Part shown: in pieces, positions 50,851 through 61,611 of the stretch | Layout: every line of letters starts with the position of its first letter | Position numbering within the stretch: the first letter of the stretch is position 1 | From: Halothermothrix sp. | GTDB lineage: Bacteria; Bacillota; Halanaerobiia; DY22613 | Length of the DNA: 61,611 nt | Direction: 5' to 3' | Assembly: GCA_016841825.1 (NCBI GenBank) | Contig: JAENYK010000020.1 | Location: 1-61,611 of the forward strand | Notes under the pieces: generated by a model | What the model was told of the DNA's origin: nothing | The model's database searches: none | What the model saw: the letters and a program-made list of their open reading frames with translations, nothing else | Made by a program: the position numbers and the translations under genes

Positions 50851-51873
50851 CTATGCTTTCCCTAATGGACAGTCAGGATAGTGACACACTTGACAGTTCA
50901 GACATAGTCCACCATGTCCCAATTTAATGATATCCTCAACTTCTACCTTTTTACCTACCAAAATATATGGGAATATTATATCAAAAATCGTAATCTTGTG
51001 AAACATGGCGCAGGCAGGTACTCCGACTACTGGTATATTATCCAAATAGGCCAGCAAAAACATGGCACCGGGCAAAACAGGTGCACCGTATTTAACAATC
51101 TCAGCACCAGTCTGCCGAATTCCCTCAGGCGTCACATCATCCGGATCAACAGACATTCCACCTCCTGTGACTATTACATCTACACCGATCTTTTTTAGAT
51201 CCAAAATCGCTTCTTTGATCTTTATGGGATCATCGGCTGCATAGGTTAATTCCTGTAATTCAACTCCATATTCATTAAATTTTTCAACAAAGATGGGACC
51301 AAACCTATCTTCAATTCGCCCATAATAAACCTCATTACCAGTGATGATTACCCCGACTTTTAAAGATTTCTGCGGTATTATATTCAAAATCTTGCCGTCT
51401 CTGGCTCCTATCTCTTCCACCTGACAGATAGGATCTTCCTCAATTACCAGAGGATTTATCCTGGTAGCTGCTACAACTTGACCAGTTTTGACCAATCTTC
51501 CTGTATGCAGAGTTGCTAATACTACGTATTCAATTCCATTAATCGCATTTAAGCGTTCTACATCAATATCTAACATTCCATCAGATTCAGCTACATAGCT
51601 GACTTTACCTTCTGATGGTTCAGTTAAACGTAAGCCTACACCTGCCGTAGCCTGGGCTATTCTTATTGCAGCCTCGTTTTCATGAAGAATTCCTTCTGTT
51701 AATTCTAAAATATAAATATGATCTTTACCCATGCTTTTTAAGATAGGAATATCCTCAGCCTTAACCATATGCCCTTTTTTGAATTTTGGCCCTTTAAATT
51801 GTCCCGGAATTATCTGTGTTAAGTCATGCCCTAGAATCATTCCTATAGATTCTTCAACAAGTACTTTTTTCAC
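50851..51873 (-). CDS. molybdopterin-binding MoeA/CinA-like protein
   Basis: 340 aa. The N-terminal part resembles the MoeA entry domain (VEESIGMILGHDLTQIIPGQFKGPKFKKGHMVKAEDIPILKSMGK). The MoCF-binding domain follows (VGVIITGNEVYYGRIEDRFGPIFVEKF, DVIVTGGGMSVDPDDVTPEG, GAPVLPGAMFLLAYLDNIPVVGVPACAMFH). A Cys-rich tail (CLNCQVCHYPDC) could bind metal. It probably helps insert or modify the molybdenum cofactor for the hydroxylases served by the neighbouring yqeB/yqeC/xdhC genes. It follows yqeB by 31 bp. Confidence 0.88.
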   Translation of the reverse strand: MKKVLVEESIGMILGHDLTQIIPGQFKGPKFKKGHMVKAEDIPILKSMGKDHIYILELTEGILHENEAAIRIAQATAGVGLRLTEPSEGKVSYVAESDGMLDIDVERLNAINGIEYVVLATLHTGRLVKTGQVVAATRINPLVIEEDPICQVEEIGARDGKILNIIPQKSLKVGVIITGNEVYYGRIEDRFGPIFVEKFNEYGVELQELTYAADDPIKIKEAILDLKKIGVDVIVTGGGMSVDPDDVTPEGIRQTGAEIVKYGAPVLPGAMFLLAYLDNIPVVGVPACAMFHKITIFDIIFPYILVGKKVEVEDIIKLGHGGLCLNCQVCHYPDCPLGKA

Positions 51874-51904
51874 TCTTCTCCCTCCTCACTAGATAATTAA
51901 CTAT

Positions 51905-52729
51905 TCAGATTCCTATTAATTCAATATTACTATGAATAGCTGTCATAATTGCTTCCAGAACCCCTCCTCCGACGGCTAATGCTTTGTCAGAGATAGTTGT
52001 AAAACTGGCATCCTTACGAGGATCAATATCACCAATCTTTACCCCATCTTTTACCCAAATTCCAGGCTTTAAAAGCCCACGAATACAACCACTGATCTCA
52101 GCATATACTGGTTCCTCTGCTACATAACCAAAGATCTCTCCTGCAGTAATCCAATCACCAATCTGTCTTTTTGAGCTGAAAATTCCCGTTCTATTAGAAT
52201 AGATCACTCTTTCTCTGCCAATTCCCTGAACTATCCCGGGAATTCCCGAATTTGGTGCAGCCTGACCAGCATAAAGTACTCTTCCCAGAGAATGCCCTCT
52301 CTTAGTCTCAATTACTGCATGGACGTCTATTCCGACTGTAAAACCCGGCCCTAAACCGATCACAAATTCAGCATCAGAGATTGTGGTTTTCGCAAGATTA
52401 CGTTTCGCCATAATAGCATCTACTATCACCATAGGCTGCCAGTATTTTATGATCTCTCCTTCCGGATCCACTACCACTGGTACTAACTCAGACTGACCTG
52501 CTTGCAGAACAGCTGTCTGCAAATTATCTGCGTAAATTCCACAGAGACCTTCTAATTCTATCTTCCTGGCGTATATAGTTTCTCCAAAGGATACGGTTCT
52601 ACGTACTACTAAAGGCTGAGCAACCTCAGTAACTATCACCTGAAATCCAGAACGCTTTAACCTGTAGGTAACACCGCTAGCCAGATCTCCACCACCTCTT
52701 ACCACAACTTTCACTTCATTAATTCTCAC
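51905..52729 (-). CDS. yqeB: EF2563/YqeB-type selenium-dependent Mo-hydroxylase maturation protein
   Basis: 274 aa. VVVRGGGDLASGVTYRLKRSGFQVIVTEVAQPLVVRRTVSFGETIY and IGLGPGFTVGIDVHAVIETKRGHSLGRVLY are characteristic of the YqeB (EF2563) family. That family co-occurs with selenium donor genes and molybdenum hydroxylases that need a labile selenium atom (comparative-genomics knowledge). The C-terminal part (GDWITAGEIFGYVAEEPVYAEISGCIRGLLKPGIWVKDGVKIGDIDPR) resembles a biotinyl/lipoyl-like sandwich. It overlaps the upstream mocA-like gene by 11 bp. Confidence 0.88.
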   Translation of the reverse strand: MRINEVKVVVRGGGDLASGVTYRLKRSGFQVIVTEVAQPLVVRRTVSFGETIYARKIELEGLCGIYADNLQTAVLQAGQSELVPVVVDPEGEIIKYWQPMVIVDAIMAKRNLAKTTISDAEFVIGLGPGFTVGIDVHAVIETKRGHSLGRVLYAGQAAPNSGIPGIVQGIGRERVIYSNRTGIFSSKRQIGDWITAGEIFGYVAEEPVYAEISGCIRGLLKPGIWVKDGVKIGDIDPRKDASFTTISDKALAVGGGVLEAIMTAIHSNIELIGI

Positions 52730-53339
52730 TATTAGATTTCCCTCCCATAGTAGTATTCAATTCCGCAGATAACCGCCGATAATCCTCTGGATAATCTAAA
52801 TCTATAGTTATACCAGGATCACAAACTTCAACTATTTTCACCTGATCATTATGAGCTTTGATTACATCTCTCCCCCCATAATCCCCTTCCACTTCTAACA
52901 GTTCCGGGAAGAATTTATAATGAAAAAAGACAGGATTACCACGCTGGCCCAAATATGTAGGTAACAAAATTCCAGATCCAGCAGCTTTGAAAACTTTAAT
53001 TAAATAATTATATGTCTCGACTTTAATTAGTGGTTGATCACCGAGAACAAATGCTGCACCTTCAATACTATCAGTGTACCCTTCGAGTCCTGCCTTTAAC
53101 GATGTACTCTGGCCCAGAGAATAATCTGGATTAAAAACTATTTTCACTCCCAGGTCAGATAAAAGTGGCCGGATTCGATCTGCATATGCCCCAAGCACCA
53201 CTGTTATCAGATCAAAATTACTGGCCTTTACCTGTTTTACTACCCGACGGATTATTGGTTCACCTTCCAGAGTTAATAACTGTTTAGATACTCCCATCCT
53301 GTCAGCCTTCCCTGCTGCCAAAACGATCCCTTGAATCAT
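52719..53339 (-). CDS. mocA: molybdenum cofactor cytidylyltransferase-like protein (MocA family)
   Basis: 206 aa nucleotidyltransferase. The start GIVLAAGKADRMGVSKQLLTLEGEPIIRRVVKQV is the NTP-binding loop; VLGDQPLI carries the metal-binding Asp, and RGNPVFF and GDYGGRDVI are family features. MocA adds CMP to Mo-molybdopterin for xanthine dehydrogenase-type enzymes. It overlaps yqeC by 4 bp (ATGA) and yqeB by 11 bp. Confidence 0.88.
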   Translation of the reverse strand: MIQGIVLAAGKADRMGVSKQLLTLEGEPIIRRVVKQVKASNFDLITVVLGAYADRIRPLLSDLGVKIVFNPDYSLGQSTSLKAGLEGYTDSIEGAAFVLGDQPLIKVETYNYLIKVFKAAGSGILLPTYLGQRGNPVFFHYKFFPELLEVEGDYGGRDVIKAHNDQVKIVEVCDPGITIDLDYPEDYRRLSAELNTTMGGKSNSEN

Positions 53340-54094
53340 TCACAAACCCTCCAATTTACCTGTTCTTCAGTATATGATGTAAGTAACACCTGATCTATCT
53401 CTGATTTCATAAAAAGCTTACCCAATTGCACACCTAAAGCTTCCCGCAAACTATCATCTGCCTGATTTAAAATAAGCGTTACCCTCATCTTTGAAAGATA
53501 TTGAGCTAAAGCATAACCTTTCGGATGGAAAAAGACCCTATACAGGTCTTCAGGTCTAACATTCTCTCCAGCCTTCAAGCCAGTCAATCGAGCAAATATC
53601 TCAAATCTATGAACTGATTGATCATCTAGAGGTTGTCCAACCCCCCGTAAACCGATTATAGGTAAAAGCAGAGTTGTAGACTCTGGAATGACAGGTTCTT
53701 GTCCATGGGGAGCTTTTAAAGGTTTTCGAGCTGAACCATCACCTTCTACCAATATTAAATCAAAAATCCCCGTCAATGCCAGTTGATCTACCCATCCGAG
53801 AGGTACTCCGATTACCTTTCCTCTCTCTATTTTCCATCCAGCTACCAGATATTCTCTTATTGCCAGGTCTAACACTCTAGTTCTTAGTTGCCTCTCCCAA
53901 TGAAGATAATTCTCTGCCTGGATAAACCGCTCCCGATCCCCGGGTAAATAAAAGATCCTGGTGGTTGTTGTAATCAATACCTTTTTTCCTTTCGCCGCAT
54001 ATCTCTTTGCCAGATGATACATCGTCGTCGTTTTGCCACCTGATCCGATCAAAGTTACCACTTTTTCCTGATTCAACTTTAATATGTTAATCAT
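53336..54094 (-). CDS. yqeC: YqeC-type selenium-dependent hydroxylase accessory protein
   Basis: 252 aa. A P-loop is visible near the N-terminus (VVTLIGSGGKTTTMYHLAKRYAAKGKKVLITTTTRIF), followed by DLILVEGDGSARKPLKAPHGQEPVIP and NQADDS, matching the YqeC family. Its exact reaction is unknown. It belongs with YqeB in genomes that have selenium-dependent molybdenum hydroxylases. It is tightly coupled with mocA. Confidence 0.86.
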   Translation of the reverse strand: MINILKLNQEKVVTLIGSGGKTTTMYHLAKRYAAKGKKVLITTTTRIFYLPGDRERFIQAENYLHWERQLRTRVLDLAIREYLVAGWKIERGKVIGVPLGWVDQLALTGIFDLILVEGDGSARKPLKAPHGQEPVIPESTTLLLPIIGLRGVGQPLDDQSVHRFEIFARLTGLKAGENVRPEDLYRVFFHPKGYALAQYLSKMRVTLILNQADDSLREALGVQLGKLFMKSEIDQVLLTSYTEEQVNWRVCE

Positions 54095-54109
54095 AATCAG
54101 TCAGATCCT

Positions 54110-54451
54110 TTACCGGTCATGTATAATAGCCTCCTTTGCTGTTACTGGTTCAATAAACACCTCCATCTTTCCTCCACAGACCATTCCTTCATCAGCTGCC
54201 ACTTCTCCCAATAATGAAATCAGACAGAGCTCAGATATACAGGTATCAATTATAATTCTCGCCCGATTTTTGACTTCTCCTTCACTACATCCACCCCCAA
54301 TAGTTCCGATAGTACGGCCATCAGGACAAATTATCATCCTGGCTCCCGCTTTTCGCGGTGTTGAACCCCAGGTTTGGACTATAGTAGCCAGAGCAACAAT
54401 TGGGAACTCATACATAATGTCGATAATTGCCTTAACCAATTCATGATTCAC
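54110..54451 (-). CDS. XdhC/CoxI N-terminal-domain protein
   Basis: 113 aa, only the N-terminal part of the XdhC family (ALATIVQTWGSTPRKAGARMIICPDGRTIGTIGGGCSEGEVKNRARII, then DEGMVCGGKMEVFIEPV). The two conserved Cys (GGGCSE and GMVCGG) are kept. In standard XdhC this part is fused to a C-terminal Rossmann domain; here that part is carried by the separate upstream gene, with an 11-bp overlap. XdhC loads sulfurated cofactor into xanthine dehydrogenase. Confidence 0.86.
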   Translation of the reverse strand: MNHELVKAIIDIMYEFPIVALATIVQTWGSTPRKAGARMIICPDGRTIGTIGGGCSEGEVKNRARIIIDTCISELCLISLLGEVAADEGMVCGGKMEVFIEPVTAKEAIIHDR

Positions 54452-55247
54452 TACAATGTACCCCCTTCCTTATAATCTGAATAATTTCAGCCATGATGCT
54501 GACTGCAATCTCAGCCGGGGTCTCTGCCTTAATATCCAGACCTATGGGAGAATGTACACCACTCAACCAATCTGGATCTATTCCCTCTCTGATTAGATCA
54601 CTCATTAATTCTTTAACTCGCCGCTTGCTGCCAATCATCCCGATATAGATCAATTTAGTTCCAGCTAAAGTCTCCAGGCATAAACGATCATAAGAATGAC
54701 CTCTGGTAACTATCACAATCAGATCTGTCTCGGTGGGAACAAGATCTCTTACTGCCCGATCAAAATCATCACAGATAACCCGAGTACCTTGCGGAAAGTT
54801 CTGAATGTTCGCAAAAATTGGACGATCATCCACTACTATCGCTGGTATTTCCACAATATTGGCCAGTTTTGCCAATGCTTGACCCACATGTCCGCAGCCC
54901 AAAATAATCAATCGAGATGGTGGTAAGATTGGTTCCAACATCATATCAACCCATTCTTCAACCAAATTCAATTTCTGTCGGTAAAATACCCCCTCTGCCA
55001 ACACCTTTTGACAGAGGGCATTTAAATTATCCTGAAAATATTTTCGTTTTTCCGATTTGAAACCCGAAAAAATGTTCTTCAAACGATATTTCTCTATATC
55101 TTCTCTGAGTGTCAGAGGATCGTCCGCGAACCAGAGTCCATGTTTTTGAGGAAGATCCAAAAATAATGGCGAACCATCTAAAATCGTAATCAACACTCCT
55201 CTTTTTTTTTCTTCCAACATCTTTAGTACGATTTTGAAAATCTCCAT
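54441..55247 (-). CDS. XdhC-family protein with Rossmann domain
   Basis: 268 aa. The C-terminal two thirds form the XdhC Rossmann domain (PPSRLIILGCGHVGQALAKLANIVEIPAIVVDDRPIFAN, TDLIVIVTRGHSYDRLCLETLAG, YIGMIGSKRRVKELMSDLIREGIDPDWLSGVHSPIGLDIKAETPAEIAVSIMAEII). The N-terminal 90 residues are a short XdhC-like part. The XxHSPIGLDIxAxTPxEIA stretch is the family hallmark. It lies 17 bp after selB. Confidence 0.88.
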   Translation of the reverse strand: MEIFKIVLKMLEEKKRGVLITILDGSPLFLDLPQKHGLWFADDPLTLREDIEKYRLKNIFSGFKSEKRKYFQDNLNALCQKVLAEGVFYRQKLNLVEEWVDMMLEPILPPSRLIILGCGHVGQALAKLANIVEIPAIVVDDRPIFANIQNFPQGTRVICDDFDRAVRDLVPTETDLIVIVTRGHSYDRLCLETLAGTKLIYIGMIGSKRRVKELMSDLIREGIDPDWLSGVHSPIGLDIKAETPAEIAVSIMAEIIQIIRKGVHCSES

Positions 55248-55264
55248 ACTACTCCACTCCTTAA

Positions 55265-57157
55265 TTAGGCCAAAATCCGCACATTCTCTTTTCGACGAGT
55301 AAGGTTAATCTCATCTAAATATTCTAAAATTGGTAAAGTATATTTTCTACTGGAGTCTAAAAGATCTCTAGCTTCTGCTAAAGTTATCTCCCCTCTCTCC
55401 TGCAGGAATAGTATAATATTATCTTTTATCTGCTCGAAGACTCCACTCAACAAATAGTATCCTTCCGTAATCTGAACCACTTCCTGAAGATAGATTAAGT
55501 ACTCAAGATAGGTTTTCACCTTTTCAGGATCCAATTGCAAATCTTGAGCCAATTCAGTTGGGGATGGTGTCTCTATACTTTCATCTATAAATATCTGACG
55601 AATATTTTGCAAATACTCCACTTCTGACTCTGTCGGAAGTGGCTGAAAAGATGCCACAGCCACCATATGCTGCTCTAATCTAAGCTCTTTTTCTTCAATT
55701 AATCTGTCTAATAATAGGTCATATTTTTGAACACTTAATTCTTCGGGCAGAACATATTTTAACTCAGCTTTGGAAATTCCAGGTTTCAGATGATATTTCT
55801 TATGAAATGCTTGAGCTGTGTTTAAAAGACGTTCTTTCCATTCACGATATTTTGCAAAACTTATTAGATAACCTTCTCCAAGTTCAAAGATCATCTCTTC
55901 AGATAATAATTGCCCAATTAATTCAGTCATTGTCTCTTCAGCCAGTTTGGCTTCCTTGATTAGTTCTGTATGGGAAATAATTCCATAATGTAAAATACGC
56001 TGTAACACCAGATCTTTTTGACTACCTCCAGCCAGTAACCTCAATTCCGCCATCTGTGGCTCCCGATATTTACGATAAAAACCTGGATTAACGTTTAAAA
56101 TCCTACCACCTCCCATAGTTCTCACAGGAGAGTAGAATCTAATAATAAACAAATCCTGAAAATGAGCTACAATTTCTTCAGCTAATTCCAGTTGAGCCAA
56201 ACCCTTCTCTCCGGGAAGTAACTCCTTTTTAGTCAGCAGAAATACTTTAGCTAAAACCTCACTGGTTCCCAGATGAAAGTGAACCCTACTGGCATGTTTT
56301 AACAGATGGGGGAAATCAGGTAGAAGTTCTAGCTCAACATCCAGACGATTGGTTGGTTTAAAAAATCCAGGTTGAACCACAATACTCCCCCGGGAGACTT
56401 CATCTTTTTCAATCCCTGCCAGATTTAAAGCAACCCTTTGACCTGCATAGGCTTTCTCAACATTTTGATTATGTACCTCAATATTTCTGATCCTGGTGGT
56501 TAATCCCTGGGGAAGAATCTCTACATGTTGATCCTTTTTGACTGTTCCCGTTAAAAGTGTTCCGGTGATAACTGTACCGAATCCTTTAATTTTGAAGGAT
56601 CTATCAATAGGAAGGCGTAATGGTGCACCACTATCTTTCGCTTCTAAAGTCTCCACAATTTCCATAATCTTTTGCTTCAATTCATCAAGACCAATACCCT
56701 TAAGTGCAGATACTCGAACTATATCTGAATCACTATATCTGGTGTCTGCCAACTCTTCTCTAATCTCTTCTTCCACCAGATCAAGCCATTCAGGATCGAC
56801 TGTGTCAATCTTGGTCAAAACAACTATCGCTTTTTTGATCTTTAATAAACTAATGACCTCCAGATGTTCTCTAGTTTGCGGCATAAACCCTTCGTTAGCA
56901 TCAATCACCAATAAAACCAGATCAATACCACCAATTCCAGCTAACATATTACCCATAAATTTCTCATGACCGGGAACATCAATCACGCCTACTCGCCGTC
57001 CATTAGGAAGATCAAAAGGGGCAAATCCCAAATCTATAGTCAGTTCTCGTTCTTTCTCTTCGCGTAAACGATCAGTGTCAACTCCTGTTAAAGATCTGAT
57101 CAAAGTAGTTTTCCCATGGTCTACATGACCTGCAGTTCCAACTATTACTGGACGCAC
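55265..57157 (-). CDS. selB: selenocysteine-specific translation elongation factor SelB
   Basis: Delivers selenocysteinyl-tRNA to UGA codons marked by a SECIS hairpin. 630 aa. The GTPase domain carries VGTAGHVDHGKTTLIRSLTG (G1), DVPGHEKFMGNMLAGIGGIDLVLLVIDANEGFMPQTREHL (G3) and VLTKIDTV (G4). EF-Tu-like domains II/III follow (DRSFKIKGFGTVITGTLLTGTV), then four C-terminal winged helices that read the SECIS. No selA, selC or selD is in the window. It heads the molybdenum-hydroxylase accessory genes. Confidence 0.96.
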   Translation of the reverse strand: MRPVIVGTAGHVDHGKTTLIRSLTGVDTDRLREEKERELTIDLGFAPFDLPNGRRVGVIDVPGHEKFMGNMLAGIGGIDLVLLVIDANEGFMPQTREHLEVISLLKIKKAIVVLTKIDTVDPEWLDLVEEEIREELADTRYSDSDIVRVSALKGIGLDELKQKIMEIVETLEAKDSGAPLRLPIDRSFKIKGFGTVITGTLLTGTVKKDQHVEILPQGLTTRIRNIEVHNQNVEKAYAGQRVALNLAGIEKDEVSRGSIVVQPGFFKPTNRLDVELELLPDFPHLLKHASRVHFHLGTSEVLAKVFLLTKKELLPGEKGLAQLELAEEIVAHFQDLFIIRFYSPVRTMGGGRILNVNPGFYRKYREPQMAELRLLAGGSQKDLVLQRILHYGIISHTELIKEAKLAEETMTELIGQLLSEEMIFELGEGYLISFAKYREWKERLLNTAQAFHKKYHLKPGISKAELKYVLPEELSVQKYDLLLDRLIEEKELRLEQHMVAVASFQPLPTESEVEYLQNIRQIFIDESIETPSPTELAQDLQLDPEKVKTYLEYLIYLQEVVQITEGYYLLSGVFEQIKDNIILFLQERGEITLAEARDLLDSSRKYTLPILEYLDEINLTRRKENVRILA

Positions 57158-57304: not shown

Positions 57305-57898
57305 TCAGTACTCTATCCCCCAACGACTATCAATACCTTTCTCAAAGGGGTGTTTAATCATTTTCATCTCTGTTACAAGATCAGCTATCTCTTTTATCTC
57401 TTGAGGTACATCCCGACCAGTGAGAACGATCTCTACCAATTTTGGCTTATTTCCCACAATGGTTTCTAACTGCTCAATAGTAACAAGATTATAATGTAAT
57501 GCATTCACTACTTCATCCAGAATAACCAGATCATACTCATCACTCATTATCACCTTTTCAGCTAACTCTATAGCTAAATTAGCTGTTTTGACATCGCTTT
57601 CGCTAGTCTCTCCCGGTTTGATAAAACATTCCCCACAACCGGTGCATTTAGAATAGCCACTTCGAATCGCTGCAGCATGTGGACACCCTCTGCCAAAACT
57701 TTTTATCTTAATAAATGGAGCTAATCTTGGTATTGAAAGTAATTCTCCAGAGTAACTAACTCCTTTCATAAACTGAATAATAAATACGTTCAGTTCATGA
57801 CCTGCAGCTCGTAAAGCTAGACCTAAAGCAGCTGTGGTTTTGCCTTTACCATCACCACTATATACCTGAACTAAACCTCTTTCTAAACGCTGTCTCAT
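57305..57898 (-). CDS. cobO: cob(I)yrinic acid a,c-diamide adenosyltransferase
   Basis: Attaches the adenosyl group to corrinoids, making adenosylcobalamin. 197 aa from the ATG at 57898, with GGAGGT upstream. P-loop GLVQVYSGDGKGKTTAALGLALRAAGHE is the BtuR/CobO signature; LVILDEVVNALHYNLV and VLTGRDVPQEIKEIADLVTEM complete it. An insert with Cys residues (RGCPHAAAIRSGYSKCTGCGECF) is notable and may bind metal. It overlaps the ABC ATPase gene, pointing to corrinoid as the substrate of the transporter. Confidence 0.93.
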   Translation of the reverse strand: MRQRLERGLVQVYSGDGKGKTTAALGLALRAAGHELNVFIIQFMKGVSYSGELLSIPRLAPFIKIKSFGRGCPHAAAIRSGYSKCTGCGECFIKPGETSESDVKTANLAIELAEKVIMSDEYDLVILDEVVNALHYNLVTIEQLETIVGNKPKLVEIVLTGRDVPQEIKEIADLVTEMKMIKHPFEKGIDSRWGIEY

Positions 57899-59162
57899 TA
57901 TCTTTGCTACCTCCATCTCTCAAAAAATTTGTCAATTCATCGAAATTAGTAGCCACCTCTGCACCTGCAGCAGTTAGTTGTCGATAGATCTCGACTGCTC
58001 TCCCATGGGTGAAATCTCTATCTTCAATTCTGGTTTTCTCTATCAAATAAACGGTTTTGCCTCTCAGACACATCTCTAATGCTGCCTCTAAGTTTGGAAG
58101 ATTACCCTGTCCAAAGGGTAGATCGGCCACGATGATCTGATCGGATCTATCCATCATCTGAAGCAGTTCAGCATAGGTTGCGTCAGATATTGCAGAAAAA
58201 GGTCTCTCTTCCACTACAGGCCGATTATTCTGTACTAGCACTTGCCAGTCAGAGTCGCCCTGATTTAGTACACCACCTGATATATGATACCCCTCTTCTA
58301 AAAGCCAGCTGATGATCTCTTGCCCAGATCCTCCACCGCAGATCAGATGGATTTTTGGAAGATCTCCTCTCAACTCAGGTAATCTACGTTGCGAGAGCAA
58401 AGATACATAAGGGCGTCCACTATATTTATAGGAGATAACCACTGCTGTATTATACACTTTCTGAATATTTTGCACAGTAATAACTTCATCCGGAGTTCCA
58501 TATTGATAAATTTTACCTTGATGGAGCATTGCCAGGTGTTCACAATATTGAGAAGCCAGATTTAAATCATGAAGAACAGCCACAATAGTTACTCCCTGGC
58601 TATTTAACTCCTGAAGTAGGTCAAAAATCTCAATCTGATAATTTATATCCAGATTAGAAGTAGGTTCATCCAAAAGAATTAACTCTGGTTCCTGAGCCAA
58701 AGCTCTGGCAATCACCACACGCTGCCTCTCCCCACCACTTAGTTCTTGAATTCCCCGCTCTCTAAACTGCCAGGTTCCGGTCTGTTCCATCACTTTTTGA
58801 ATAATCTCCCGATCTGTTATCCCTTCCTTATTCCATCGTCCCTGATGAGGATAGCGTCCCATAGCTACTACCTCATAGGCAGAAAAATTATAAATTGTCT
58901 CTGTGCTCTGAGGTACTACAGCCATCTGACGAGCCATTGCTTTTATAGAAATCTTCGATATTAGTTGATTATTAAGACATATCTCTCCATTCTGTGGGAT
59001 TAATACTCCTGTAATTAACTTAAGTAGAGTTGATTTACCGGAACCATTGGGTCCAATAATTCCAACAAAATCTCCCCGGGGAATCGTCAGATTTATTCCT
59101 TTCAATAATAATTCTGAACCATACCCAAATGAAATATCCTTACACAATAACATTCTGTCCAT
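57858..59162 (-). CDS. FecE/BtuD-type ABC ATPase with C-terminal extension
   Basis: About 434 aa; a normal FecE/BtuD ATPase is about 260. The ATPase has Walker A GPNGSGKST, Q-loop AVVPQSTETIYNFSAYEVVAMGRYPHQGRW, signature LSGGERQRVVIARALAQEPELILLDEPTSNLD and the switch His in VLHDLNLASQ. The extra 180 residues (from HLICGGGSGQEIISWLLEEGYHISGGVLNQGDSDWQV to DELTNFL) form a second Rossmann-like domain. I choose the ATG at 59162 (GAGGG 5 nt upstream); a GTG at 59195 directly after the permease stop is an alternative. Likely substrate: corrinoid. Confidence 0.88.
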   Translation of the reverse strand: MDRMLLCKDISFGYGSELLLKGINLTIPRGDFVGIIGPNGSGKSTLLKLITGVLIPQNGEICLNNQLISKISIKAMARQMAVVPQSTETIYNFSAYEVVAMGRYPHQGRWNKEGITDREIIQKVMEQTGTWQFRERGIQELSGGERQRVVIARALAQEPELILLDEPTSNLDINYQIEIFDLLQELNSQGVTIVAVLHDLNLASQYCEHLAMLHQGKIYQYGTPDEVITVQNIQKVYNTAVVISYKYSGRPYVSLLSQRRLPELRGDLPKIHLICGGGSGQEIISWLLEEGYHISGGVLNQGDSDWQVLVQNNRPVVEERPFSAISDATYAELLQMMDRSDQIIVADLPFGQGNLPNLEAALEMCLRGKTVYLIEKTRIEDRDFTHGRAVEIYRQLTAAGAEVATNFDELTNFLRDGGSKDNETAFRKRFSSGI

Positions 59163-59195
59163 CAAATCCCTCATTTCCGCATATCCATGTTCCAC

Positions 59196-60200
59196 TTAAA
59201 TCTTTCGACTAGTCCGCAATTGATAGAGGAAAAATGGTCCTCCAAAAAGTGCTGTAATCACTCCTACAGGAATCTCCAGAGGTGCTGCAGCTATTCTCGC
59301 AATAGTATCACTCAACATCAAAAATCCTCCACCAAAGATACTTGCTGAAATGACTAATTTGCGATGATCTGGCCCGATTAACAATCGGACTATATGTGGA
59401 ATAATCAAACCTACGAAACCAATAACCCCACTAACAGATACAGCTGAGGCTGTTAATAATGCTGTAGTAATCAAAGAAATGCGTTTAGTTCTCTCCACGT
59501 TAACTCCAAGATTATGAGCGGTCTCCTCACCTAAGAGAATTAAATTTAAATCCTTGGCAAGATAGATTGCTGTTGACAAACCTATCAATAAATAAGGCCA
59601 GATAATCTTCACTTCAGACCAACTTCCCTGAGCCATGCTGCCCATCATCCAATAAACCACTTTATAATAATCCTTGACTCCCAGAACCATTAATAATGAA
59701 GTCAGAGCACTTAATAAAAACCCAACAGCCATTCCCGCTAACAGGAAATGAACAACTGGTATTCTCCCATTATGTTGAGACACCTTATATACCATAAAGA
59801 CCGTTACCAAAGCTCCAATAAAGGCAAAGAGTGGGACTGTGCTTAAGCCTAGAAAATTTAAATTTAAATTAAGTATCATCGCAATAGTAGCACCCAAACC
59901 AGCACCCGCTGAAGTACCAACAATATATGGATCTGCCATCGGATTACGAATCAATCCCTGCATCAAAACTCCCCCAGTAGCCAGGGCAGAACCAACTAAA
60001 AAACTTAAGATAATCCTTGGCAAACGAATTCTAAATAAAATAACTGCAAATAAATTATTAGCATCCTCCGCTCCGGTAATAACCTTCCATAAATCAGGAA
60101 GAGCTATTCCCGCCGGACCCACGGTAACAGCGATAATTCCAATTATTAATACCGTTATAATTAAGACTAACAACCAGATACGAAAATCACCTTTATTCAT
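59196..60200 (-). CDS. FecCD-family ABC permease
   Basis: About 334 aa from the ATG at 60200 (GGAGGATAAT upstream). Around nine or ten TM segments. RIRLPRIILSFLVGSALATGGVLMQGLIRNPMADPYIVGTSAGAGLGATIAM and VSVSGVIGFVGLIIPHIVRLLIGPDHRKL are the FecCD/BtuC signatures, and EETAHNLGVNVERTKRI is the cytoplasmic coupling loop. Family members import vitamin B12, haem or ferric siderophores. The cobO neighbour favours B12. No binding protein (BtuF) is in the window and no B12 riboswitch is seen upstream. Confidence 0.93.
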   Translation of the reverse strand: MNKGDFRIWLLVLIITVLIIGIIAVTVGPAGIALPDLWKVITGAEDANNLFAVILFRIRLPRIILSFLVGSALATGGVLMQGLIRNPMADPYIVGTSAGAGLGATIAMILNLNLNFLGLSTVPLFAFIGALVTVFMVYKVSQHNGRIPVVHFLLAGMAVGFLLSALTSLLMVLGVKDYYKVVYWMMGSMAQGSWSEVKIIWPYLLIGLSTAIYLAKDLNLILLGEETAHNLGVNVERTKRISLITTALLTASAVSVSGVIGFVGLIIPHIVRLLIGPDHRKLVISASIFGGGFLMLSDTIARIAAAPLEIPVGVITALFGGPFFLYQLRTSRKI

Positions 60201-60395
60201 ATTATCCTCCATTATTTCAATTATTACATAGTCACTACCAGACACATCTGTTAAATATTCTAGAGATTAAGAACAAATTCCTTTAAACCACCTACATAAA
60301 ATTCTTCCAATCAAAAAAACTAACTGTAGACCTATTGTTAATCTTAGCTTAAATTTTAATTAGATTTGTTAACTCAAAATAGGAGGCTGGCATTC

Positions 60396-61412
60396 ATGAA
60401 ATTATTTCAACCAAAAAGAGTGTTTATTGAAGAAAGAGCATTGGATTATCCACTTGGGCAAGAGATCAAAGAAAGGTATGAGCTATTGGACATCCCAGTA
60501 AAAATTATCGAATCTCACAATCGAATTGATTGGGGAAAAAAAGAACTGTCCAAAAAAGAACTATTTGACCTGGCCAAAAGCACTCTTGTGGCAGGAGTCA
60601 AAAAAACACTAAAATTCCAACCGTGTTATCCCTCTGCTGATTATCGCCTGGTTACCAGTACCAGTTGTCCTGCCAGATGTGAATATTGCTATCTTTCTGC
60701 AACACTGGGGTCTGCTGTCTATATAAGAGTATACGTAAATATTGAAGAACTATTGGCAGCTACTCAAAAACATATTGATAAAAGCAATAAACAGATCACT
60801 ACTTTTGAAGCCAGTTCTTCTTCTGATCCACTGGCTGTAGAACATATTACCGGTCATCTTCAACAGTTAATACCCTTTTTTGCCCAACAGCCTAACGCTC
60901 GCTTAAGAGCAGTTACTAAGTTTGCCAATGTAGATCCTATTCTCAACCTCAAACATAATGGTCATACCCGCTTCCGTTTTAGTCTCAACTCTGATTATGT
61001 AATCAACAATTTTGAACAGGCTACTGCTTCTATGAGAGAAAGGATAGAAGCAGCCGGAAAGATTCAACGTGCAGGATATCCTATGGGGTTTATCCTGGCT
61101 CCACTAATGATTTATGAAGGGTGGAAAGATGGTTATACAGAAATGTTAGAACTATTACATAAGACCTTGTATAATCCAGAAACTGTAGAATTAACTTTTG
61201 AGTTAATCATGCATCGATTCACAACCAGGGCGAAAAATATCATTCAAGCACGATATCCGGAAACTAAACTTAGTTTTAGCATGAAAAACCGGGAACACAA
61301 AGGATTTGGTAAATATGTATATGATTCTGACACAGCATATGAATTAGAAAATTTTTTACGGGATAAGATTGAAGAGTTATTTCCACAGGCAAAGATTGAA
61401 TATTTTACATGA
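60396..61412 (+). CDS. splB: spore photoproduct lyase-like radical SAM protein
   Basis: 338 aa from the ATG at 60396 (AGGAGG 9 nt upstream), B. subtilis SplB being 342. The radical-SAM motif CPARCEYC gives Cys 91, 95 and 98, the same numbers as in B. subtilis. Also conserved: RALDYPLGQE, STLVAGVKKTLKF, LGSAVYIRVYVNIEE, KHNGHTRFRFSLNSDYVINNFE, FELIMHRFTTRAKN and the end KIEYFT. The enzyme reverses the 5-thyminyl-dihydrothymine lesion in germinating spores. The hydrogen-donor Cys 141 (FEASCTSD in B. subtilis) is Ser here (FEASSSSD), so activity or mechanism may differ. Single gene with its own terminator. Confidence 0.92.
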   Translation: MKLFQPKRVFIEERALDYPLGQEIKERYELLDIPVKIIESHNRIDWGKKELSKKELFDLAKSTLVAGVKKTLKFQPCYPSADYRLVTSTSCPARCEYCYLSATLGSAVYIRVYVNIEELLAATQKHIDKSNKQITTFEASSSSDPLAVEHITGHLQQLIPFFAQQPNARLRAVTKFANVDPILNLKHNGHTRFRFSLNSDYVINNFEQATASMRERIEAAGKIQRAGYPMGFILAPLMIYEGWKDGYTEMLELLHKTLYNPETVELTFELIMHRFTTRAKNIIQARYPETKLSFSMKNREHKGFGKYVYDSDTAYELENFLRDKIEELFPQAKIEYFT

Positions 61413-61475: not shown

Positions 61476-61550
61476 TGGAGCGAAAGACGGGACTTGAACC
61501 CGCGACCCTCACGTTGGCAACGTGATGCTCTACCACTGAGCTACTTTCGC
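61476..61550 (-). tRNA. tRNA-Gly (anticodon GCC)
   Basis: On the minus strand the acceptor GCGAAAG pairs with CTTTCGC, followed by discriminator T and an encoded CCA. The D-arm AGCTCAGTGGTAGAGC, anticodon loop TTGCCAA in a TCACG/CGTGA stem, and T-loop GGTTCAAGTCC are intact. Confidence 0.95.
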
Positions 61551-61557
61551 ACATATA

Positions 61558-61611
61558 TGGTGGGCGCAATAGGACTTGAACCTATGACCTCCTGCTTGTA
61601 AGGCAGATGCT
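61558..61611 (-). tRNA. tRNA-Val (anticodon TAC), cut by the window edge
   Basis: The 3' part on the minus strand shows GCATCTGCCTTACAAGCAG (anticodon loop TTACAAG), T-arm GGTTCAAGTCC, acceptor 3' strand TGCGCCC and encoded ACCA. The 5' half lies beyond position 61611. Confidence 0.9.

Follow-up and report, generated by a model that had tools for sequence, protein, structure and literature searches.

A spore photoproduct lyase with serine in the column of the Bacillus donor cysteine most likely uses Cys77 as its hydrogen donor

The DNA analysed here is a 61,611-nucleotide stretch from Halothermothrix sp. (assembly GCA_016841825.1, contig JAENYK010000020.1; hereafter the window), in which a splB-type gene encodes a spore photoproduct lyase (SPL) with serine in the column of the Bacillus H-atom donor Cys141. 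Comparison with related proteins makes us confident that this protein is a genuine and probably functional SPL of the Cys77 (clostridial) type, with Cys77 as the putative H donor in place of Cys141. The donor appears not to be missing but relocated, most likely to Cys77, and the apparent paradox of an SPL without an H donor is thereby removed. The Cys77-type SPL is an already known kind; the remaining interest lies in a strict either/or rule for the two cysteines, in the linked column 84 and in the tip-less hairpin of the subtype that includes the window protein. The features of the gene are listed in Table 1.

Table 1. Position of the SPL gene in the window and of the residues discussed in the text
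Feature	Position	Strand	Basis
GGAGG ribosome-binding site before the ATG	60382..60386	+	read from sequence
splB-type gene, SPL with Cys77/Ser141 arrangement, 338 aa (ATG at 60396, stop at 61412)	60396..61412	+	ORF, profile matches
Cys77 (TGT), proposed H-atom donor; column of the engineered S76C in Geobacillus SPL	60624..60626	+	alignment, structure title, counts
Arg84, third position co-varying with the place of the cysteine	60645..60647	+	alignment columns
CX3CX2C radical-SAM motif: Cys91, Cys95, Cys98	60666..60689	+	sequence, alignment
Tyr97-Cys98-Tyr99, both tyrosines forming the radical relay	60684..60692	+	alignment; roles from PMC3742179
FEASSSSD motif; Ser141 (TCT, 60816-60818) in the Bacillus Cys141 column	60804..60827	+	alignment
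Lys302-Gly303 junction, four hairpin-tip residues ([WYF]G[QKR][FYW]) absent	61299..61304	+	alignment

The product scored 421.3 bits against TIGR04070 over residues 4-338 (equivalog cut-off 400) and 414.9 bits against the Pfam SPL family PF20903 (cut-off 27), which it matches over its full length, and it fell below the cut-off of TIGR03886 (128.8 versus 437.55 bits). Geobacillus SPL chains in the PDB are sequence matches of the protein. A fold search confirmed the SPL fold and nothing beyond; the AlphaFold model of the protein is mediocre, with a mean pLDDT of 70.1 and values below 50 at residues 91-96, 99-108 and 288-308, and is too weak there to yield a distance between Cys77 and the lesion. 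We defined a near-invariant column as one in which a single letter fills at least 97% of the rows covering it, some terminal columns being covered by few rows, and the window SPL departs from the family at none of the 50 such columns.

The only cysteines of the protein are at positions 77, 91, 95 and 98, and Cys77 is the sole one outside the cluster motif, a point overlooked in the first-pass annotation of this DNA. That annotation was right in placing the cluster cysteines at 91, 95 and 98 and a serine in the Bacillus donor column, and its concern that the register might be wrong is answered by a HMMER alignment, which sets Ser141 on residue 140 of Geobacillus SPL and FEASSSSD over FEAAATSD and FEAASTSD in two chains. 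Its further concern, that another cysteine might occupy the donor site, was probably well founded, with Cys77 as that cysteine. The Ser141 codon is a single base away from the Cys codon TGT. The serine is lineage-wide and not an error, since FEASSSSD occurs in 15 of the 21 SPLs in the sample of the window's class (the window counted) and position 141 is serine or alanine in all 21. A second splB with Cys141, which the annotation had thought worth seeking, was not found in the genome: PF20903 gave a single match at E <= 10, and a search with TIGR03886 returned only the same gene.

SPL sequences were drawn from the window's class (21 of 41 genomes), four named Bacilli, a phylum sample of 398 genomes and a Bacilli sample of 299 genomes. 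In the phylum sample 204 genomes had any match; all 150 listed places were examined first, and a second round took in weaker matches from a further 29 genomes (30 of 34 listed places); the remaining 25 genomes, whose matches were 6.6e-28 or weaker, lay outside the count. In the Bacilli sample 95 of the 133 listed places were examined (85 new, 10 already in the set). Exactly one of Cys77 and Cys141 was present in 269 of 269 SPLs covering both columns (171 at 77, 98 at 141), although these proteins are related and hence not independent trials, and the trees need just a handful of state changes. The same had held in earlier rounds of the count, in 165 of 165 proteins of the first set and 250 of 250 once Bacilli were added. 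The column states were Cys77/Ala141 in 136, Cys77/Ser141 in 35 and Ser77/Cys141 in 98, so that serine stands at 77 in every Cys141-type SPL, and Cys77 was the only conserved cysteine outside the cluster among Cys77-type SPLs (152/152). In the phylum sample Cys77 is commoner than the textbook Cys141, which is nearly restricted to Bacilli. This strict rule supports, from sequence alone, a need for exactly one donor cysteine.

One row (L273) lay outside both columns, and ten distant SPL-like proteins (L272 and L275-L283) were counted separately from the 269. These ten carry Asn77/Ser141 and neither cysteine, and the either/or rule therefore holds only for SPL proper. Two of them were tested and fell under both NCBIfam cut-offs, with TIGR04070 scores of 226 and 203.5 bits where 400 is required. 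They come from other genomes of the phylum, their motif is mostly FEIGSNSD, and their hairpin ends in GKYCY in nine rows and GKYWY in one. Two further observations concern individual genomes: besides a Cys77-type SPL, G289 and G341 each contain another, weaker match whose score is similar to those of the distant proteins, and G071:C12 and G122:C2 may be broken genes, since the SPL match at each is split in two, one with an internal stop.

The genome also encodes Spo0A and has seven places matching the SASP family PF00269. In the class sample of 41 genomes, 21 of the 23 that have SASPs also have SPL, against none of the 18 that lack SASPs (Fisher p 9e-10, kinship ignored), and Spo0A was present in all 41. 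In two genomes of the class (G001 and G039) SASPs are present without any SPL match. The co-occurrence of SPL and SASPs fits repair of a SASP-dependent lesion, and the window SPL most likely repairs spore photoproduct. Spores of C. difficile from which spl has been deleted survive UV about ten times less well (PMC8452069). No sigma-G promoter stood out from shuffled sequence ahead of the SPL gene, either in the window or in the relatives tried, and forespore expression is thus unsupported at the sequence level. On the minus strand of the window lie selenium and molybdenum-hydroxylase maturation genes (50851-57157; YqeB, YqeC, MocA-like and XdhC-like, adjoining selB), corrinoid genes divergent from the SPL gene (57305-60245; cobA-like adenosyltransferase, ABC ATPase and BtuC-like permease) and, at 61476-61611, a tRNA-Gly gene, followed by an apparent second tRNA cut by the contig end.

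The first-pass annotation had offered three explanations for Ser141: that another residue takes over, that the product spectrum differs, or that the protein is a SplB relative with another job. We find the last very unlikely. The missing hairpin tip and Arg84 could be taken to favour it, but the TIGR04070 score lies above the equivalog cut-off, no near-invariant column departs, and this is the sole SPL in a genome with SASPs and Spo0A, in a class in which the presence of SPL tracks that of SASPs. Decay to an inactive SPL, for which loss of the textbook donor might speak, is hardly credible at all: the frame is open, the near-invariant columns are kept, and the motif is clade-wide in 15 members of the class. 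The protein might instead be a leaky enzyme in which Cys77 is a poor donor, yielding mixed products in vivo, and to that extent a changed product spectrum is weakly possible. With its smallest substrate, a dinucleotide, C. acetobutylicum SPL is cited as giving about 80% TpT and about 20% TpT-SO2- in vitro in the presence of dithionite (PMC5368176). However, the adduct forms only when dithionite is added and the substrate is a dinucleotide, which binds weakly, and the Cys77 arrangement, the commoner one in the phylum sample, is invariant within its type, which makes a leaky enzyme rather unlikely.

It is also conceivable that the H atom comes from Ser141 itself, from Tyr97 or Tyr99, or from solvent or a small thiol, with Cys77 serving a structural role. 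The old donor site is lined by four serines in a row and both tyrosines are kept in 165 of 165 SPLs. However, a serine O-H is a poor H-atom donor by general chemistry, and serine is not required in column 141, where alanine outnumbers it among the 171 Cys77-type SPLs, while Cys77 is invariant among SPLs without Cys141. For the tyrosines, TpT-SO2- is the main product of the B. subtilis C141A mutant and appears without a lag phase, which has been read as speaking against donation by a tyrosine (PMC3742179). We regard donation from any of these sources as quite improbable. This leaves the first of the three proposals, that another residue takes over, as the one we adopt, with Cys77 as the probable residue.

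In the catalytic cycle that we infer for the window SPL, the [4Fe-4S] cluster on Cys91, Cys95 and Cys98 would cleave SAM, and the 5'-deoxyadenosyl radical would abstract the C6 proR hydrogen of the lesion, after which the dimer would fragment. The 3'-thymine allylic radical would then receive an H atom from Cys77, not Cys141, and the Cys77 thiyl radical would be quenched via Tyr99/Tyr97 back to 5'-deoxyadenosine, with regeneration of SAM. Ser141 would mark the vacated donor site, which holds alanine or serine in relatives. The radical path is unsettled, because the account in PMC5368176 places C74 of C. acetobutylicum SPL, the likely counterpart of Cys77, opposite the relay tyrosine and invokes a collapse of the pocket.

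Column 84 varies with the place of the cysteine. It holds alanine or serine in 98 of 98 Cys141-type SPLs and glutamine, arginine or glutamate in 170 of 171 Cys77-type SPLs, and residue 84 also follows the cysteine position in L065 (Ala84), L196 and L197 (both Gln84). Arg84 is limited to the window's clade. The four residues missing between Lys302 and Gly303 are absent from 16 proteins and present in 247 of 247 other SPLs covered, with six rows not covering the place. Fifteen of the 16 are the FEASSSSD proteins, which all belong to the window's class; the other, L270 (FELSSSGD), comes from outside that class but within the phylum. Its presence rules out a deletion confined to FEASSSSD proteins. 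In other SPLs the tip is mostly aromatic-Gly-polar-aromatic and corresponds to Geobacillus SPL 302-305 in the numbering of the sequence alignment; Benjdia in 2012 reportedly described the hairpin at these residues as facing the lesion. The tip as an SPL feature is empirical, derived from the present comparison and not from a published criterion. Our literature search found no report of the column-84 covariation or of an Arg84, tip-less Ser141 clade, and among the papers listed by a search on the hairpin none has a title on SPL structure.

Lesion binding may differ in the tip-less clade. A more tentative proposal, which we consider possible but doubtful, is that Cys77, Arg84, Ser141 and the tip loss define a distinct SPL subtype in which radical path and DNA grip changed together, with columns 77, 84 and 141 acting as a coupled switch. 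If so, evolution would have used this switch to shift the catalytic cysteine from one side of the active site to the other, and the tip-less subtype would differ from all SPLs studied to date in how it opens or holds the lesion. For probing how radical path and lesion grip are tuned, specific residues are available in column 84 and the hairpin tip.

In one of the trees, Cys141-type proteins form one group (support 88/70, unstarred) inside a starred Bacilli group that also holds L196 and L197, two proteins of one family in that class with Cys77/Ser141/Gln84, placed just outside the Cys141 group. If Cys77 is taken as the outside state, one reading of this unrooted tree is that Cys141 arose inside Bacilli. 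A switch back to Cys77 within Bacilli, as a reading of L196 and L197, was set aside, as the support for their position is only 88/70 and unstarred. L065 (Cys141/Ser77/Ala84, FDGSCTSD) lies among Cys77-type rows in the larger tree; a single origin of the Cys141 type nevertheless passes the AU test (p 0.976; p 0.753), and convergence is not claimed.

Among known proteins, those of TIGR03886 and the ten distant proteins share with the window SPL the character of SPL-like radical-SAM proteins; the ten also share Ser141, but unlike the window protein they have neither Cys77 nor Cys141. Bacillus subtilis SplB has the family, cluster motif and relay tyrosines in common with the window protein (PMC3742179) and differs in its donor at 141: the Bacillus type combines Cys141 with Ser77 and Ala/Ser84, whereas the window protein has Ser141 and Cys77, the clostridial arrangement. 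The closest engineered likeness is Geobacillus thermodenitrificans SPL in PDB 4rh0, titled as a C140A/S76C mutant, in which a cysteine stands opposite Cys77 of the window and alanine at 140, while column 77 is serine in the two other Geobacillus chains aligned. The interval of 64 between chain positions 103 and 167 matches that between residues 76 and 140. This man-made protein resembles the window SPL in having a cysteine at column 77 and none at 141, but it was built in a Cys140 enzyme and retains the hairpin tip of four residues as well as alanine in column 84. The natural counterpart is C. acetobutylicum SPL (Yang et al. 2017, as cited in PMC5368176), in which, as probably in the window protein, the donor cysteine lies off the Bacillus site and ahead of CX3CX2C; its conserved C74 is described as lying on the opposite side of the pocket, projected opposite a conserved tyrosine. 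The core explanation, a donor cysteine elsewhere, is therefore already in print for another species, and a full-text literature search for C74 of SPL found no source besides PMC5368176. C74 most likely corresponds to column 77 of the window, the only conserved candidate column. Most sampled Cys77-type SPLs combine this cysteine with Ala141, Gln84 and a full hairpin, in contrast to the window SPL, which has Ser141, Arg84 and no tip.
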